From: Myxococcus hansupus
GTDB taxonomy: Bacteria; Myxococcota; Myxococcia; Myxococcales; Myxococcaceae
NCBI RefSeq assembly: GCF_000280925.3
Contig: NZ_CP012109.1
Location: 7,398,501-7,462,500 of the forward strand
DNA length: 64,000 nt
Reading direction: 5' to 3'
Position numbers and translations under genes: made by a program. This document shows positions 46,015 to 53,964 of this stretch, piece by piece (the first letter of the stretch is position 1; each line of letters begins with the position of its first letter). The notes under the pieces are model-generated. The model saw only the letters and a program-made list of their open reading frames with translations. It searched no databases and was not told the origin of the DNA.

Positions 46015-46043
46015 TTGACAGACACCCGGATCCACGTTTATTT
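46015..46043 (+). promoter_or_regulatory. Sigma-70-like promoter of the methionine transcript
   Basis: TTGACA (46015-46020) and TTATTT (46038-46043) are 17 bases apart. Transcription would start near 46050, immediately at the first helix of the riboswitch. The -35 is a perfect consensus match. Confidence 0.65.
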
Positions 46044-46046
46044 CGT

Positions 46047-46152
46047 CCGCAGCATCAAGAGCGGTCCCGCCTCGCGCGGTGGCCCGACAACCTGGAGACG
46101 GACCTCCAAGGTGTCCAAACGATGCGGCTCGGGGAGCAGGGGCTCCACGAGC
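46047..46152 (+). promoter_or_regulatory. SAM-I/IV-clan riboswitch
   Basis: P1 pairs GCATC (46052-46056) with GATGC (46121-46125). After P1 comes AAGAGCGG, as in SAM-I. P2 uses CCGC/GCGG (46067-46070/46076-46079) with outer GG/CC pairs. The conserved GGCCCGACAACC is at 46081-46092. P3 is CC-t-GGAG/CTCC-aa-GG (46091-46097/46104-46111), followed by GGTGTCCAAA, the counterpart of the SAM-I 'GGUGCcAA'. There is no P4; instead a hairpin GCTCG..GGAGC/GCTCC..CGAGC (46127-46152) follows P1, as in SAM-IV and SAM-I/IV variants. It lies at the predicted 5' end of the aspartokinase-homoserine dehydrogenase message, so S-adenosylmethionine should repress that gene. Confidence 0.8.
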
Positions 46153-46467
46153 AATCCAAGTGTCCGAGGCCGGAGGACTCCTCCAGCGCTCGGTGAGAGA
46201 GGACCTCCGTGGTTCCATCCACCTGCTCCGCACCGTCCGTTACCGCTCACGCGTCGCGCATGAACCACCACGTCCTCGTCGCGCATCGAATGCGTCGGCC
46301 CGGCGGCATGCACTAGCCCGCCAGGGCTCCCTTCCCAGCACCTTCTTCCTTCTTGCCGTGGGCGCGTGAGCGCCGCGTCCAGCCGGCGTGTGTCCGGGGC
46401 GCGGTGCCATGTCTGCCCTTCGCTTGCGACGCGGGGCCACGCGGCCCGTTCGAGTTCGAGGTTCTCC
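46153..46467 (+). other. Long leader between the riboswitch and aspartokinase gene
   Basis: No conserved gene is seen. The leader contains GGAGG-act-CCTCC (about 46171-46183), an 18-codon ORF starting at 46260 (MNHHVLVAHRMRRPGGMH), and a hairpin AGCCC-gcca-GGGCT (46315-46328) followed by a pyrimidine-rich stretch CTTCTTCCTTCTTG. The last of these is the best candidate for a terminator-type expression platform. The ribosome site GAGG lies at about 46458. Confidence 0.4.
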
Positions 46468-48963
46468 ATGAGCAGCACGTCTTTGCAGGTGATGAAGTTC
46501 GGCGGTTCGTCCGTGGGTGCGCCCGCGCGGCTTCGCCAGGTCGTCGAGCTGATTGGACAACACGCGAAGCGCGGCCCCCTGGCGGTGGTCGTCTCCGCGA
46601 TGGGCGACACCACCGACTGGCTGCTGGACGCGGCCCGGCTCGCCACGGAGGGAGACCTGGAGGGCTCGCTCACCGTGGCCACGCGCATCGCGGACCTGGC
46701 GAAGGCCAACGTCGCGGCGCTCGCGCCCGCGCGGGCCACCGTGCTGGCGGAGCGTGTCGATGCGCTCCTCTCTCCGCTGCGGCAACTGCTCCAGGGCATC
46801 TCCCTCACGCGGGAGTGCTCGGCCCCCACGCGAGACCGGGTGCTGTCCTTTGGAGAGGTCGTCTCCGCGACGCTGCTCGCGGAGCTGCTCACGGCCCACG
46901 GCACCGCCGCGGCGTTCCGCGATGCGCGGCAACTGCTCGTGACGGATGAGCGCTTTGGCGCGGCGCGGGTGGACCTGGTGCGCACGCGGGAGCGGCTGCA
47001 AGCCGCGGCGGAGACATGGGGCGGCGAGGTGCCCGTCATCCCCGGCTTCATCGCCGCGACGCCGGACGGCCGCACCACCACGCTGGGCCGCAATGGCTCC
47101 GACTACACCGCCGCGCTGGTGGCCCAGGGCCTGGGCGCGACGGAAGTCACGGTGTGGACGGACGTGCTCGGGCTGCACACGGCGGACCCGGACCTCGTCA
47201 CGGACGCGTACCCCGTGGCGCACCTCACCCACGGCGAGGGCCTGGAGCTGGCCGCGGTGGGCGCGCGCATGCTGCACCCGCGCACGATGATTCCCCTCAT
47301 CGAGTCCGGCATCTCCCTGCGCATCCGCAACACCATGGAGCCGGAGCACCCGGGCACGCTCATCGACGCCATCGGTTCACGAGACGGCCAGCGCCCCGCG
47401 TGCATCGCGACGCGCGAGGACCTGGCGCTGCTCGGCATCGAGGTGCGCAAGCTGTCGGACCAGTTCCAGCTCGGCGAGCGGGTGCTGGCCGCGCTGCGCC
47501 AGGCGAACGTGACGGTGTGGATGACCGCGCAGTCCGCCAATGGCCAATCCCTGGCCGTCGTCGTCCCCCGCGCCGACGCGGAGCACGCGCGGACCGTGCT
47601 CGCCGCGGAGCTGGCCCAGGAGCTGTCCCGCCGCGAGGTGGAGCCGCTGGAGGTGCGCCAGCCGGTGACGCTGCTGACGCTGGTCGCCGAGACGATGGGC
47701 CATGGCGTCAACGTGGCCGGACGCTTCTTCAGCGCCCTGGGCGCGGTGGGCGTCAATGTGCGCGCCAGCGCCCAGGGAGCCAGCTCGCGCTCGCTGTCGT
47801 GTGTCGTCGACGCGGCGGACACCGCCATCGCGGCGCGCACCACGCACGCGGCCTTCAACCTGGCCCATCAGCAGGTGAGCCTCTTCGTCCTCGGCCACGG
47901 CACGGTGGGCGGGCAGCTCCTGGCGCAGCTTCGGGCGCAACAGGCGCTGCTCCGGGACAAGCACGGCATCGCGCTGCGCGTCGTGGGCATCGCTGACAGC
48001 AAGCGTGCCCTCTTCGAGGCCTCGGGGTTGTCGCTGGAGGGGCTGGAGGCGCGGCTGTCGCGCGAGACGCCCGAGGCGCCGGAGACGCGCTCCCTGGTGC
48101 CGCTGCTGGAGGCGCTGCGGCGACTGCCCGTGCCCATCCTGGTGGACTGCACCGCCGCAGGCGGGCTGGAGACGCTCTACACGGAGGCCTTCCAGCGCGG
48201 CATCCACGTGGTGGCGGCGAACAAGAAGCCGCTGGCGCTCCCGTGGGAGGCGCGCGAGGCGCTGCTGGCCACGGCGCGGAGAAACCACGTCGCGTACCAC
48301 TACGAGACGACGGTGGCCTCCAGCCTGCCCGTCATCGACACGCTGGCGAACCTCGTGCGCACGGGGGACACGGTCCACCTCATCACCGCGTCGCTGTCCG
48401 GCAGCCTGGGCTTCATCTGCAACGAGCTGACGGCGGGCGTGCCGCTGTCCCGGGCCGTCCGCGCCGCTCGCGAGCGGGGCTACACGGAGCCCGACCCGCG
48501 CGAGGACCTGAGCGGCACGGACGTCGCGCGCAAGGCGCTCATCCTGGCGCGGGAGCTGGGCCTGCCGCTCTCGCTGGCCGACGTGGCGTTGGAGCCCTTC
48601 GTCACCACGCGGGAGGGAACTTCCGTGGACGCGTTCTTCCAGGAACTGGCGCAGCAGGACGCGGCCTTCGAGGAGCGCGTGGCCCGCTGCCGGCAAAGCG
48701 GCACCGTGCCGCGCTACCTGGCCCGCATCGACCCGTCGAAGGCGGGCACCGGCAGTCCCGTCATCCGCGTGGGCACCGTGAACATCGAAGCGGGCCACCC
48801 CGCCGCGCACCTCCGCGGCTCCGAGTCCTTCGTGTCTTTCACCACCACCCGCCACAGCGACTTCCCGCTCACCGTCCGCGGCGCGGGCGCGGGCGGCGCC
48901 GTCACCGCCTCCGGTGTGCTGGCCGACATCCTCCGCATCTCCCAGACGCTGCGGGGCCGCTGA
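46468..48963 (+). CDS. thrA: Bifunctional aspartokinase / homoserine dehydrogenase
   Basis: This is an 831-residue two-enzyme protein. The aspartokinase part has N-terminal VMKFGGSSVG, the FGE(V/L) stretch DRVLSFGEVVSATLLAELL and GRNGSDYTAAL, then ACT domains (about 300-450). The homoserine dehydrogenase part has NAD(P)-binding GHGTVGGQLL, DCTAAGGLETLY and NKKPLAL, and SLSGSLGFICNEL. It catalyses the first and third steps from aspartate to homoserine, feeding methionine and threonine. The SAM-class riboswitch upstream implies methionine-dependent control, making it MetL-like in regulation. The start at 46468 is taken because MSSTSLQVMKFGG is the natural N-terminus and GAGG precedes it. Two trans-sulfuration genes follow. 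Confidence 0.93.
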   Translation: MSSTSLQVMKFGGSSVGAPARLRQVVELIGQHAKRGPLAVVVSAMGDTTDWLLDAARLATEGDLEGSLTVATRIADLAKANVAALAPARATVLAERVDALLSPLRQLLQGISLTRECSAPTRDRVLSFGEVVSATLLAELLTAHGTAAAFRDARQLLVTDERFGAARVDLVRTRERLQAAAETWGGEVPVIPGFIAATPDGRTTTLGRNGSDYTAALVAQGLGATEVTVWTDVLGLHTADPDLVTDAYPVAHLTHGEGLELAAVGARMLHPRTMIPLIESGISLRIRNTMEPEHPGTLIDAIGSRDGQRPACIATREDLALLGIEVRKLSDQFQLGERVLAALRQANVTVWMTAQSANGQSLAVVVPRADAEHARTVLAAELAQELSRREVEPLEVRQPVTLLTLVAETMGHGVNVAGRFFSALGAVGVNVRASAQGASSRSLSCVVDAADTAIAARTTHAAFNLAHQQVSLFVLGHGTVGGQLLAQLRAQQALLRDKHGIALRVVGIADSKRALFEASGLSLEGLEARLSRETPEAPETRSLVPLLEALRRLPVPILVDCTAAGGLETLYTEAFQRGIHVVAANKKPLALPWEAREALLATARRNHVAYHYETTVASSLPVIDTLANLVRTGDTVHLITASLSGSLGFICNELTAGVPLSRAVRAARERGYTEPDPREDLSGTDVARKALILARELGLPLSLADVALEPFVTTREGTSVDAFFQELAQQDAAFEERVARCRQSGTVPRYLARIDPSKAGTGSPVIRVGTVNIEAGHPAAHLRGSESFVSFTTTRHSDFPLTVRGAGAGGAVTASGVLADILRISQTLRGR

Positions 48964-48989: not shown

Positions 48990-50090
48990 ATGAAACTCGC
49001 CACCGCCCTCGTCCATGCCGGCGTGCGCCGCGATGCCGCCACCGGCGCCGTCTCCGTCCCCATCTACCAGTCCGCCACCTTCCAGCACCCCGCGCTCGGG
49101 CAGTCCACGGGCTATGACTATTCGCGCACGAAGAACCCCACCCGCTCCGCGCTCGAGGACGCGCTGGCGCGGCTGGAGGGCGGCAGCCGTGGCCTCGCCT
49201 TCAGCTCCGGCATGGCCGCGCTGCACTGCGCGCTCCAGCTCTTCGGCCCACAGGACCACGTCCTGCTCACCGAGGACCTCTACGGCGGCACATACCGGCT
49301 GGTGGACCGCCTCCTCCACGTGCCCTGCACCTTCGTGGACACCTCGCGTCCCAGCGCCGTGCGGGACGCGCTGCGCCCCAACACCCGCGCCATCGTCGTG
49401 GAGACGCCGACGAACCCGATGATGCGCACGGCGGACATCGCCGTGCTGGCGGACATCGCGCGCAAGGCCGGGGCGCTGCTCATCGTCGACAACACCTTCC
49501 TCACGCCGTGGCTGCAACGCCCGCTGGAGCTGGGCGCGGACATCGTCGTGCACAGCGCGACGAAGTACCTGTCCGGGCACAACGACGTCGTCGCGGGCGC
49601 GCTCGTGGCCAAGGACGCCGCGCTGGGCGAGAAGCTCGCGTTCATCCAGAACGGCATCGGCGCGATTCTGGGTCCGCAGGACGCGTTCCTCGTGATTCGC
49701 GGCCTGAAGACGCTGGCCCTGCGCATGGAGCGGCACCAGTCCAACGCGCGCGAGGTGGCCGCGTGGCTGCGCGCCCATCCCGCCGTGGAGCGCGTCTTCT
49801 ATCCCGGCCTGGGCGGCATGCTGTCCTTCACCGTCACGCAAGCGGCCCTGGTGCCCCAGGTGCTCGCGTCCGTGCAGTTGTGTCTCTTCGCCGAGTCGCT
49901 CGGCGGCGTGGAGACGCTCATCACCTACCCCACCACCCAGACCCACGCCGACATCCCCGCCGAGCGCAGGGAAGCGCTGGGCATCTCCGACCGGCTGCTC
50001 CGGCTCTCCGTAGGAATCGAGGACTCCCATGACATCATCGCCGACCTGGCCCACGCGCTTCGCGACCCGTCTGCTGCACACGGGGCATGA
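48990..50090 (+). CDS. Trans-sulfuration PLP enzyme (cystathionine gamma-synthase/beta-lyase family), copy 1
   Basis: This 366-residue Cys/Met metabolism PLP enzyme has AFSSGMAALHCALQL, TEDLYGGTYRL, ETPTNPMMR and the PLP lysine in HSATKYLSGHNDVVAG. In this operon it is the likely cystathionine gamma-synthase or O-acyl-homoserine sulfhydrylase that turns activated homoserine into cystathionine or homocysteine. Exact specificity within the family cannot be decided by eye. AAGGAG lies 9 bases upstream of the ATG, and the gene follows the aspartokinase-homoserine dehydrogenase gene by 26 bases. Its last 62 bases overlap the start of a paralogous gene. Confidence 0.88.
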   Translation: MKLATALVHAGVRRDAATGAVSVPIYQSATFQHPALGQSTGYDYSRTKNPTRSALEDALARLEGGSRGLAFSSGMAALHCALQLFGPQDHVLLTEDLYGGTYRLVDRLLHVPCTFVDTSRPSAVRDALRPNTRAIVVETPTNPMMRTADIAVLADIARKAGALLIVDNTFLTPWLQRPLELGADIVVHSATKYLSGHNDVVAGALVAKDAALGEKLAFIQNGIGAILGPQDAFLVIRGLKTLALRMERHQSNAREVAAWLRAHPAVERVFYPGLGGMLSFTVTQAALVPQVLASVQLCLFAESLGGVETLITYPTTQTHADIPAERREALGISDRLLRLSVGIEDSHDIIADLAHALRDPSAAHGA

Positions 50091-51159
50091 GCAGGACCCC
50101 GCGACGGGCGCCGCCGCCGTCCCCATCTACCAGGTGTCCATGTTCGACCAGCCGGGCCTGGAGACGCCCGGCGAGTTCGACTACGCGCGCTCCGGCAACC
50201 CCACGCGCAAGGCGCTGGAGGGCGTGCTCGCCGCGCTGGACGAGGGCGCCGCGGCCTTTGCCTTCAGCTCCGGCATGGCCGCGGTGTCCAACGTCCTGAT
50301 GCTCTTCAGCGCGGGCGACCACCTCGTCGTCACCGATGACTGTTACGGCGGCACCTACCGGGTGCTCACCCGCGTCTTCAGCCGCTTCGGACTGCAGGCC
50401 ACCTTCGTGGACACCAGCAACCCGGACGCGGTGCGCGCGGCCCTGCGCCCCAACACGAAGGCGCTCTTCGTGGAGAGCGTGAGCAACCCCTTCCTCAAGC
50501 GCACCGACATCCCCGCGGTGGCCCGCATCGCGAAGGAACACGGGGCGCTGCTCATCGTGGACAACACCTTCCTGTCCCCGTGCCTGTCGCGCCCGCTGAC
50601 CGAGGGCGCCGACGTCGTGATTCACTCCGCCACCAAGTACCTGGGCGGCCACAGCGACGTCATCGCCGGGACGGTAGCGGTGCGGACGCCCGCGCTCGCG
50701 CAGGAGCTCGGCTTCCTGCAGAACGCGGTGGGCGCGGTGCTGGGCCCCCAGGACTGCTTCCTCCTCCAGCGGGGCATCAAGACCTTGCAGGTTCGGCTGG
50801 AGCGGCAGGTGCAAACGGCGAAGGCGTTGGCGAAGTGGCTCGCCAGCAGGCCGGAGGTGGAGCAGGTCTTCTATCCGGACACCGGCGCGGTGGTGTCGTT
50901 CCGGCTGGCCCGCGACACGCTGGCGGCGCCCTTCGTGGAGTCGCTCCAGCTTCCGCTGCTGGGCGTGTCACTGGGCGCGGTGGAGAGCATCGTCACAGTC
51001 CCCGCGCGGCACTCGCATGCCGCCGTCCCCGCGCCGGAGCGGCAGCGCCGAGGCATCACGGATGGGCTCATCCGTTTCTCCGTGGGACTGGAGGAGCTGG
51101 AAGACCTGCAAGAGGACCTCGCCCAAGCGTTCGCGAAGGCCCTGCGCGTGGCGGCCTAG
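50029..51159 (+). CDS. Trans-sulfuration PLP enzyme, copy 2 (possible cystathionine beta-lyase)
   Basis: This 376-residue paralogue of the preceding gene has AFSSGMAAVSNVLML, TDDCYGGTYRV, ESVSNPFLKR and PLP lysine in HSATKYLGGHSDVIAG. As the second of a tandem pair it may be the beta-lyase that splits cystathionine to homocysteine, or the gamma-lyase. The ATG at 50029 (GAGGAC upstream) gives an unusual 62-base overlap with the previous gene. The conserved domain begins at RFATRLLHTGHEQDP, so a later start would remove conserved sequence and the overlap is probably real. A 267-base gap with its own signals separates it from metN. Confidence 0.88.
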   Translation: MTSSPTWPTRFATRLLHTGHEQDPATGAAAVPIYQVSMFDQPGLETPGEFDYARSGNPTRKALEGVLAALDEGAAAFAFSSGMAAVSNVLMLFSAGDHLVVTDDCYGGTYRVLTRVFSRFGLQATFVDTSNPDAVRAALRPNTKALFVESVSNPFLKRTDIPAVARIAKEHGALLIVDNTFLSPCLSRPLTEGADVVIHSATKYLGGHSDVIAGTVAVRTPALAQELGFLQNAVGAVLGPQDCFLLQRGIKTLQVRLERQVQTAKALAKWLASRPEVEQVFYPDTGAVVSFRLARDTLAAPFVESLQLPLLGVSLGAVESIVTVPARHSHAAVPAPERQRRGITDGLIRFSVGLEELEDLQEDLAQAFAKALRVAA

Positions 51160-51293: not shown

Positions 51294-51426
51294 GCCTCCC
51301 TCACCCCACGAACCGATGTTCCCCTGGACCGGCCTTCCCCTGGCGCGTCCAGGACCGGGCCGCCCACCGCGTGCACTCGCGCGCGGTCCCCCTCTCACCC
51401 GACGCGGTTTCCCAGGAGCAGTGCAC

Positions 51427-52419
51427 GTGATTGCCTTTCGCGGGGTCAGCAAGGTCTACACATCGGGCGGGCGCGAGGTCGCCGCGCTGAGGAACGTGTC
51501 CCTCCGGGTCGAGGCGGGCGAAGTCCACGGGGTGCTGGGACAGAGTGGCGCGGGCAAGTCCACGCTCATCCGCTGCGCGAACCTCCTGGAGCGGCCGAGC
51601 CAGGGCACGGTCCACGTCGATGGTCAGGACCTGCTGGCCCTGAGCCCCGAGGCGCTGCGCAAGGCGCGCCAGAGCATCGGGATGATCTTCCAGCACTTCA
51701 ACCTCTTCCCCTCGAAGACGGTGGCCGCGAACGTCGCCTATCCCCTGGAGGTCGCGGGCGTCCCACGCGCCCAGGTGCGCGAGCGCGTGGAGGAGCTGCT
51801 CTCCCTGGTGGGGCTGTCCGACAAGGCGCTGGCCTATCCCGCGCAACTCTCCGGAGGACAGAAGCAGCGGGTGGGCATCGCGCGGGCGCTGGCGCCCCGT
51901 CCCCGCGTCCTGCTCTCCGACGAGGCCACGTCCGCGCTGGACCCGGAGACGGCGCGCTCGGTGTTGGAGCTGCTGCGCGACATCAACCGCCGGCTCGGCG
52001 TGACGCTGCTGCTCATCACGCACCAGATGGACGTGGTGAAGGCCATCTGCGACTCGGCATCGGTGCTGGAGCGAGGACGGCTGGTGGAGCAAGGCAAGGT
52101 GACGGAGCTGCTCGCCCGTCCCGGCACGAGGCTCCATGAGCTGTGCTTCCCGCCTTTCTCCACGGGGACGGAGGCGCCCACCGGCCGGCGCGTGGCGTTG
52201 ACGGTGGCGGGTGAGAACGCGCGGCGGCCCCTGCTCTCCACCCTGGCGCGCCAGTTCGACGTGGATGCCCTGCTGGTGGAGGGCGCCGTGGAACGCGTGG
52301 GCGCCATTCGCGTGGGCCGGCTGCTCTTCGACCTCCAGGGCACCGCCGACGCCGTGAGCCAGGCCCTCACCTATCTGCGTGAGCAGGGCCTGACGCCCGA
52401 GGAGGTTCCCCATGGATAG
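51427..52419 (+). CDS. metN: Methionine ABC transporter ATPase MetN
   Basis: This 330-residue ATPase has Walker A GQSGAGKS at 38-45, a Q-loop in MIFQHFNLFPSKTV, signature LSGGQKQRVGIARAL, Walker B VLLSDEATSALDP and a C-terminal NIL-type regulatory domain (about 250-330). This is the MetN arrangement, in which methionine binding to the C-terminal domain inhibits transport. The GTG at 51427 is preferred because AGGAG lies 8 bases upstream; a GTG at 51421 is too close to it. It overlaps metI by 8 bases and heads the metNIQ unit for uptake of methionine (L- or D-). Confidence 0.93.
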   Translation: MIAFRGVSKVYTSGGREVAALRNVSLRVEAGEVHGVLGQSGAGKSTLIRCANLLERPSQGTVHVDGQDLLALSPEALRKARQSIGMIFQHFNLFPSKTVAANVAYPLEVAGVPRAQVRERVEELLSLVGLSDKALAYPAQLSGGQKQRVGIARALAPRPRVLLSDEATSALDPETARSVLELLRDINRRLGVTLLLITHQMDVVKAICDSASVLERGRLVEQGKVTELLARPGTRLHELCFPPFSTGTEAPTGRRVALTVAGENARRPLLSTLARQFDVDALLVEGAVERVGAIRVGRLLFDLQGTADAVSQALTYLREQGLTPEEVPHG

Positions 52420-53083
52420 CCAGCTTCCGCGCATGCTCGGCGTGGCCACCGCGGAGACGCTCTACATGACGTCCGTGGCCGCGCTGCTCGTCCTCCTCGC
52501 GGGCGTTCCCCTGGGCGTGCTGCTGGTCATCACCGACCGGGGCGGGCTGTGGGAACGTCCCGCGTTGAACCGGGTGCTGGGCGCGCTCGTCAACGTGGGC
52601 CGCTCCATCCCGTTCATCATCTTGATGGTGGCCATCGTCCCGCTCACCCGCTTGCTGGTGGGCACCACCATTGGCACCACCGCCGCCATTGTCCCGCTGG
52701 TGGTCGCGGCCATTCCCTTCATGGGCCGCATCGTCGAGCAGAGCCTGCGCGAGGTGGAGCACGGCCTGGTGGAGGCCGCCATCGCCATGGGCTCCACCCA
52801 CCGCCGCGTCATCTTCCAGGTGCTCATCCCGGAGGCGCTGCCGTCGCTCGTGCGCGGCACGGCGATCATGGTCATCAGCCTTCTGGGCTACAGCGCCATG
52901 GCCGGCGCGGTGGGCGGCGGCGGCCTGGGCGACCTCGCGGTGAAGTACGGCTACATGCGCTTCCGCACCGACGTCATGGTGGGCTGCCTCGCCGTGCTGC
53001 TGGTGCTGGTGCAGTTCGTCCAGTGGTTCGGTGACGTGCTGGCCTCCCGCTTCGAGCCCGCTGGCGCGCGGACCTCTCGCTGA
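52412..53083 (+). CDS. metI: Methionine ABC transporter permease MetI
   Basis: This 223-residue inner membrane permease has about five helices and the BPD_transp_1 coupling loop EAAIAMGSTHRRVIFQVLIPEA, which docks to MetN. Features typical of MetI are NVGRSIPFIILMVAIVPLTR and GGGGLGDLAVKYGY. It is translationally coupled to metN (8-base overlap) and followed by metQ after 47 bases. Confidence 0.94.
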   Translation: MDSQLPRMLGVATAETLYMTSVAALLVLLAGVPLGVLLVITDRGGLWERPALNRVLGALVNVGRSIPFIILMVAIVPLTRLLVGTTIGTTAAIVPLVVAAIPFMGRIVEQSLREVEHGLVEAAIAMGSTHRRVIFQVLIPEALPSLVRGTAIMVISLLGYSAMAGAVGGGGLGDLAVKYGYMRFRTDVMVGCLAVLLVLVQFVQWFGDVLASRFEPAGARTSR

Positions 53084-53130: not shown

Positions 53131-53964
53131 ATGAAGTCCCCTTCTCGTTCCCTGCTCACCCCGCTGCTGCTGGCCGTGAGCGTGCTGCTCGCGGCCTGCC
53201 AGAAGCAGGAGGCGTCTTCGGGCGAGTCCTCGAAAACCCGCGCCTTGAAGGTCGGCGTCAATCCGGTGCCGCACGGCGACATTCTCCGCGCCGCGGCCGC
53301 CGTGGCGCTGCGCGACGGCGTGCGCGTGGAGGTGGTGGAGTTCACCGACTACATCCAGCCGAACATCGCGCTCGCGGAGGGAGACCTCGACGCCAACTAC
53401 TTCCAGCACGTGCCCTACCTGGAGCGCTTCGCGGGCGACCGGAAGCTCGCGCTGACCAGCGCGGGGGCCGTGCACCTGGAGCCGCTGGCGCTCTACTCCA
53501 CGAAGTTCAGCCAGCTCGCGGAGCTGCCCGAAGGCTCGCAGGTGACGCTGCCCGCGGACCCCAGCAACCTGGCGCGGGCGCTCCGGCTGCTCGAGGCCCA
53601 GGGCCTGCTGCGCCTGAGCGACGGGGCTGGTGCCACGGCCACGGTGAAGGACGTGGTGGGCAACCCGCGCAAGCTCGACCTGCGCGAGATTGATGCGGAG
53701 CAGCAGCCGCGCACCCTGGAGGACGTCGCCGCCGCCGTCATCAACGGCAACTACTTCCTGGAGGCCCAGAAGCACCTCCGGCTGGACGCGAAGGTGCTGG
53801 CCCGCGAGTCCGCGAAGCAGAATCCCTACGCCAACGTGCTCGCCGTGCGGCGGGGCGACGAGGCCCGTCCCGAGGTGCAGGCGCTGGTCAAGGCGCTCCA
53901 CTCCGAGGAGGTGCGCCAGCACATCGAGTCCCGCTACGCCGGCGCGGTGGTGCCCGCCTTCTGA
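53131..53964 (+). CDS. metQ: Methionine-binding lipoprotein MetQ (NlpA family)
   Basis: This 277-residue substrate-binding protein has a lipoprotein signal (VLLAAC). The NlpA/MetQ family is shown by KVGVNPVPHGDIL, VEFTDYIQPNIAL, DANYFQHVPYLE and ALYSTKF. It captures methionine and delivers it to MetI. The ATG at 53131 has GGAG upstream; an in-frame TTG at 53116 would add five residues without improving the signal peptide. Confidence 0.94.
   Translation: MKSPSRSLLTPLLLAVSVLLAACQKQEASSGESSKTRALKVGVNPVPHGDILRAAAAVALRDGVRVEVVEFTDYIQPNIALAEGDLDANYFQHVPYLERFAGDRKLALTSAGAVHLEPLALYSTKFSQLAELPEGSQVTLPADPSNLARALRLLEAQGLLRLSDGAGATATVKDVVGNPRKLDLREIDAEQQPRTLEDVAAAVINGNYFLEAQKHLRLDAKVLARESAKQNPYANVLAVRRGDEARPEVQALVKALHSEEVRQHIESRYAGAVVPAF

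Follow-up and report, generated by a model that had tools for sequence, protein, structure and literature searches.

A SAM-I/IV riboswitch and, behind it, a methionine leader-peptide attenuator seem together to control one predicted methionine biosynthesis and uptake operon of Myxococcus hansupus, a reading to which we give a probability of roughly 0.5. Because a conserved mini-gene enriched in methionine codons lies directly behind the SAM sensor, the operon seems to read both SAM and the supply of charged Met-tRNA. Our tentative view of how this works, held at a little short of even odds, is that the riboswitch exerts no direct control over the operon: SAM would gate translation of the Met-codon leader peptide, whose stalling would decide transcription, and the aptamer would have been placed before an older Met/Cys attenuator that relatives still use alone. 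Taken by itself, the aptamer is unremarkable for the SAM-I/IV class; what is new is the composite arrangement into which this known RNA has been built. The initial annotation of this DNA was incomplete, as it overlooked the conserved methionine-codon leader ORF between the aptamer and thrA. The features are collected in Table 1, with coordinates counted along the window, that is, the whole 64-kb stretch analysed.

Table 1. Features of the thrA leader and operon, and metY leader peptides found elsewhere
Feature	Position	Strand	Evidence or remark
Promoter, TTGACA (46015-46020), 17-nt spacer, TTATTT (46038-46043)	46015-46043	+	sequence
SAM-I/IV aptamer, RF01725	46047-46168	+	cmscan, 48.6 bits
P1 closing helix, GCATC (46052-46056) / GATGC (46121-46125)	46052-46125	+	nearly invariant
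P3 with SAM-binding core, GACAACC...AAGGTGTC	46086-46115	+	core invariant in 33 relatives; double changes at two P3 pairs
PK-2 5' strand CGGAC, in P3 loop	46099-46103	+	pairs with 46162-46166
P5 hairpin after P1	46127-46152	+	double and single-side changes preserving pairing
PK-2 3' strand GTCCG, overlapping P6 5' strand	46162-46166	+	alignment
P6 hairpin CCGAGGC...GCTCGG, unable to form together with PK-2	46164-46193	+	conserved pairing, covariation at one pair, variable loop length
Leader ORF Shine-Dalgarno GAGAGG	46197-46202	+	GAGAG(G/T) in 32/32 leaders
Leader ORF, 35 codons, GTG start, TAG stop, MVPSTCSAPSVTAHASRMNHHVLVAHRMRRPGGMH	46209-46316	+	frame kept in 32/32 riboswitch-thrA leaders
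Control codons CGA-ATG-CGT (Arg-Met-Arg)	46287-46295	+	CGA-ATG-CGY in 32/32 leaders
P8 hairpin GGCCCGGCGG...CCCGCCAGGGC around leader stop codon	46297-46327	+	moderate support
C/U-rich (G-poor) unstructured stretch, possible Rho loading site	46328-46357	+	sequence, alignment; function inferred
Hairpin GGCGC-GTGA-GCGCC	46361-46374	+	conserved pairing, three double changes
thrA, bifunctional aspartokinase-homoserine dehydrogenase	46468-48963	+	NF006959 770.9 bits, cut-off 726; Pfam domains; ATG 46468
metB-like Cys/Met metabolism PLP enzyme, cystathionine gamma-synthase-like	48990-50090	+	PF01053; best NCBIfam below cut-off
metC-like Cys/Met metabolism PLP enzyme, cystathionine beta-lyase-like	50029-51159	+	PF01053; best NCBIfam below cut-off
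MetN-like methionine ABC transporter ATPase, start codon uncertain	51421-52419	+	TIGR02314 best match, below cut-off; NIL domain
MetI-like permease	52412-53083	+	NF008049 210.9 bits, cut-off 212
MetQ/NlpA-like lipoprotein	53131-53964	+	PF03180
Own-genome metY leader ORF MTSLNAMCRMSMPGGLMPSRFG, then stop	in locus L109, C1:1150512-1151765	reverse	elsewhere on chromosome; metY without riboswitch
g9 metY leader peptide MTLIRSRMPMSMEAMLMRGPGMRAFAGECCPSCCR, then stop			
g7 metY leader peptide MRKFTSQMRRSMRLEAMHMRGPGGRPVAGECCRRCC, then stop			
g36 metY leader peptide MKSSSASMWMCPEAMLMRGPGMRASAGECCCGCRI, then stop			
g31 metY leader peptide, C-terminal part ..MFVTSAMCMCSMPVPGGPKPAAAG, then stop			

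The initial annotation had assigned the RNA to the SAM-I/IV group, and this assignment held. When the window was searched against Rfam by cmscan, the best match within the SAM clan was RF01725 (SAM-I-IV), which scored above its gathering cut-off of 41.1 bits (E 6.9e-5 over the whole 64 kb), and the core and helices are kept in relatives. RF01725 was the sole Rfam family to reach its curated threshold within the window; a permissive Rfam search near the site also returned adapt33_4, Ms_IGR-8 and Fluoride, all below cut-off and chance-like. Besides the score, the RNA possesses P1, an unsplit P2, P3 with the CAACC/GGUG core, P5 after P1, and PK-2. SAM-I (RF00162) was ruled out as the class by the absence of P4 and of the kink-turn/PK-1 in P2, which is unsplit apart from one bulge. 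The unsplit P2 likewise ruled out SAM-IV (RF00634), in which P2 is divided into P2a and P2b with PK-1 (PMC6890682). The RNA thus almost certainly belongs to the SAM-I/IV class, and SAM binding is predicted.

P1, the AAGAG junction, P3, the core and the hairpin directly after P1 (P5) were all found as earlier claimed, and only 5 nt lie between P3 and P1, so that P4 is indeed absent. The aptamer in the originally annotated interval, 46015-46152, is therefore real, whereas the 3' end of that interval was drawn too short: it left out the 3' strand of PK-2 and the leader that follows. PK-2 is newly added here; it occurs in every sequence with letters at these positions and is invariant within the family, while the Rfam consensus and two other Myxococcota members (L028, L035) use different complementary strands. 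Among 33 aligned relatives, pairing is kept in 98.7% of the cells of the structure as drawn. None of 500 shuffles and no slid version reached the observed covariation score, an excess that kinship of the sequences can also cause. The covariation anticipated for this RNA was seen in P2, P3 and P5, each of which has double changes; P1 and the core, being nearly invariant, say little on this point. The promoter also lies where it had been claimed, and every aligned leader from the genus keeps its TTGACA. An automatic promoter scan did not list TTGACA-N17-TTATTT because the -10 element departs from the rule of the scan. The promoter would place the transcript start at about P1.

Of the 27 genomes of the genus, 25 scored at once, and the other two proved to hold the complete riboswitch when the region upstream of their thrA was inspected. 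Hence, the riboswitch occurs in 27/27 genomes, with P1, P2, P3, P5, the SAM core and the promoter all kept. More copies were found in other genera of the family, plus a few across the rest of the phylum, and the core pattern is present in records named Myxococcus xanthus, Pyxidicoccus, Citreicoccus, Hyalangium and an Archangium MAG. A Myxococcus-type riboswitch was also seen in L144 (BNCN01000002.1), a record titled Comamonas sp. KCTC 72670, whose name looks wrong. Three other genera carry the same riboswitch upstream of metY (O-acetylhomoserine sulfhydrylase, identified from sequence).

The downstream gene had been named as an aspartokinase-homoserine dehydrogenase and a methionine-pathway control point, and both statements were borne out, the former by the NF006959 match above cut-off from ATG 46468 and the latter by the genes that follow. 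Judged by their domain and family matches, the genes from 46468 onwards form a methionine biosynthesis and uptake operon. As called, the two PLP enzyme genes overlap by 62 nt (50029-50090); the second may in truth begin further downstream. The thrA operon and metY as targets both fit a SAM sensor.

The aptamer is not adjacent to the thrA ribosome site; some 300 nt of leader separate it from thrA. All relatives read have in this leader GAGAG(G/T), then GTG and an ORF of 35-46 codons whose TAG stop lies at the hairpin. Nine different distances separate the GTG from the last CGAATG in the 32 leaders, all of them (32/32) multiples of three, in a test anchored on two nucleotide motifs rather than on ORF ends chosen in frame. 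The flanking distances, from P1 to the GTG and from CGAATG to the thrA ATG, fall in all three residues modulo 3. In 29 of the 30 leaders tabulated, the control ATG lies 8 codons before the stop. These observations bear on one alternative, a plain SAM-I/IV riboswitch that targets either transcription or the far-off ribosome site of thrA, next to which the short ORF is incidental. Although direct control is known for the class and the residues between the ends of the leader peptide are not conserved, such a device appears improbable given nine ORF lengths that all preserve the frame, the constant Shine-Dalgarno, start, stop and control codons, and the occurrence of similar Met-rich ORFs in relatives without the riboswitch.

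Met accounts for 64 of 1268 internal leader codons (5.0%, against 1.07% in operon genes) and CGA for 46 of 240 Arg codons in the leader ORFs (against 3.4% in operon genes), with counts that come from related genomes and are not independent. The leader peptide of the window contains three internal Met codons, one of them strictly conserved. No excess of synonymous changes was found in the ORF frame across the 32 leaders; conservation at the peptide level was thereby ruled out, and the peptide elsewhere is free to vary. Since the frame and Arg-Met-Arg are kept while the remaining peptide varies, the pattern, as read from the alignment, is that of a control-codon leader and not of a conserved peptide. 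It is very probable that the leader ORF is functional, and its translation is predicted; that it senses methionine is somewhat more likely than not. Nascent-peptide arrest by Arg-Met-Arg, rather than scarcity of tRNA, strikes us as highly improbable: the residues upstream, those expected inside the exit tunnel, are unconstrained within the riboswitch genus, and runs of Met and Cys codons in relatives match the amino acids of the pathway, even though the triplet is conserved, CGA is a rare Arg codon here, and genera g8 and g9 share a longer peptide that is near-identical at the DNA level.

Genus g8 has thrA without the riboswitch, but with a promoter-like TTGACA and a leader ORF in 6/6 genomes (L038, L039, L059-L062). 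In all six, this ORF contains PVTRMPMSMEAMLMRGPGMRA, with six internal Met codons and again CGA-ATG; near-identical DNA precedes metY in g9 (L075). In L038, the Shine-Dalgarno CGTCTGGAG is able to pair with the downstream CTCCAGACG. Further DNA matches to the g8 leader (L087-L102) were set aside as chance, those read being inside genes. More generally, met operons of relatives lacking the riboswitch begin with longer Met/Cys-rich leader peptides, and Met/Cys leader ORFs lie upstream of metY in g7, g8, g9, g31, g33, g36 and the window's own genome. Being rich in Met and Cys, these ORFs encode the amino acids of the pathway. No Rfam family was found in metY-type leaders at the five loci tested. 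In the own-genome metY leader, GGGTGGGCTC, located close to where the ORF ends, is able to form an antiterminator with GAGCCCATCC (mean -21.7 kcal/mol in 27 family leaders); otherwise, GAGCCCATCC is part of a terminator hairpin (mean -27.3 kcal/mol in the same 27) followed by CGTCGTTT. As modelled, this is a textbook antiterminator/terminator pair.

The copies in which the riboswitch precedes metY (L005, L027, L029) have mini-ORFs encoding MMCHPLN, MCRCYLP and MCCCRPPQR, each followed by a stop codon, in which Cys is kept and internal Met is almost absent. The Shine-Dalgarno of these mini-ORFs lies inside a GGCGG...CCGCC hairpin. Within this sample, riboswitch copies carry fewer Met codons than riboswitch-less leaders.

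How SAM might reach the leader ORF is suggested by P6, which immediately precedes the leader Shine-Dalgarno in all copies and has a CCGG/CCGG counterpart in the metY copies. PK-2 and P6 share GTCCG, and therefore only one of them can form fully. When the PK-2 strand was blocked in silico, partition-function folding moved the mean accessibility of the Shine-Dalgarno only from 0.38 to 0.34. Sequestration of the Shine-Dalgarno by a P7 hairpin upon PK-2 formation, attractive by eye, was thus unsupported by folding and is kept only as conjecture; with so small a shift, the effect of SAM on leader initiation is one that we infer. We give close to an even chance to the view that SAM acts through the leader ORF.

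The folding result, together with the use of the leader peptide alone in relatives, would suit an arrangement in which the two devices are independent, SAM acting via PK-2/P6 on a target other than leader initiation while the peptide attenuates on Met-tRNA. We think this unlikely in view of the invariable position of P6 directly ahead of the leader Shine-Dalgarno and of canonical members in which the Shine-Dalgarno is itself the 3' strand of PK-2. L028 (G073) and L035 (G158), other Myxococcota RF01725 matches above cut-off with a short platform, are of this kind, their PK-2 3' strand being the Shine-Dalgarno of the next ORF. In L035, the strand reads AGGAGG just ahead of the start codon, and a member of this type could block the ribosome site directly. 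Unlike in L035, the PK-2 3' strand in the window is no Shine-Dalgarno.

Competing hairpins of the attenuator type are clear in the metY leaders, whereas the thrA leader shows only P8, moderate in its support (mean z of -1.39 against shuffles, 20/32 leaders below -1) and without a U tract. A pattern scan of the thrA leader found no U-tract intrinsic terminator, and this candidate was dropped; termination, if any, may proceed via Rho at the C/U-rich stretch. It is conceivable that the riboswitch controls whether the leader ORF is translated and that the ORF does no more than protect the RNA against Rho, with Met codons that sense nothing. The C/U-rich, G-poor stretch directly after the ORF, the want of a U-tract terminator and the freedom of most of the peptide to vary are what such a shield predicts; an invariant CGA-ATG-CGY just ahead of the hairpin, the surplus of Met codons and the occurrence of Met/Cys-rich ORFs in relatives are not, and they leave the shield rather unlikely.

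Under the reading that we prefer, in which SAM gates a methionine-sensing leader peptide, high SAM would stabilise the aptamer and PK-2, blocking P6 and lowering initiation at the leader ORF. Left untranslated, the leader would then permit termination, probably Rho-dependent, at P8, within the C/U tract or further on. Under low SAM, the leader ORF would be translated. CGA-ATG lies a few nucleotides ahead of P8, so a ribosome awaiting Met-tRNA would cover the P8 5' arm; if low SAM coincided with scarce Met-tRNA, the ribosome would stall at CGA-ATG, mask this arm and let the polymerase pass.

SAM-I/IV RNAs were described in 2010 as typical of metagenomes, with Myxococcus unmentioned in the main text (Weinberg 2010, PMC2864571). 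The RNA in the window shares with the published class (RF01725; PMC2864571) the P1-P2-P3 core, the unsplit P2, the lack of P4 in the Rfam model, and P5 and PK-2 after P1; it differs in that no Shine-Dalgarno is formed by the 3' strand of PK-2 and that a leader ORF and about 300 nt precede the first gene. The nearest two-input case is the SAM-I leader of a methionine operon in Xanthomonas campestris, which responds to SAM and also senses uncharged initiator tRNA, and thus the state of methionine tRNA (PMC7270179). There, however, the tRNA is bound directly by the platform of another riboswitch class, and no separate Met-codon leader peptide is described, whereas here a translated Met-codon leader would do the sensing (PMC7270179). 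The nearest case of action at a distance is Sinorhizobium meliloti metA, where a SAM-II riboswitch acts and a terminator separates the gene from a start lying upstream; in contrast to the window, the abstract describes an in-frame second start of the same gene and no Met-codon leader peptide (PMC9373788).

The leaders studied here are Met/Cys-specific, five such loci have no Rfam match, and in the window the leader is joined to a riboswitch, features that set them apart from classical attenuators. In the trp, his and thr leader-peptide attenuators, competing hairpins follow a short ORF whose codons include those for the end product of the pathway, a design that the metY leaders reproduce most clearly. 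No methionine leader-peptide attenuator was found among Rfam matches or in the open-access literature. That literature held nothing relevant on a SAM riboswitch with a leader peptide, on myxobacterial SAM riboswitches or on methionine-codon attenuation, an absence that is no proof of novelty.

The usual view of a riboswitch is of a device with one input, which acts on whichever ribosome site or terminator comes next. In the present case, the riboswitch appears to be coupled in series to another RNA device, an attenuator of the leader-peptide type that serves the same pathway. Close relatives carry each arrangement: the attenuator alone, the riboswitch with a Met ORF, and the riboswitch with a Cys mini-ORF. 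If our reading is true, these arrangements would let the grafting of one metabolite sensor onto another be followed. Furthermore, the tractable Myxococcus xanthus has the aptamer, which makes the two-input logic directly testable.
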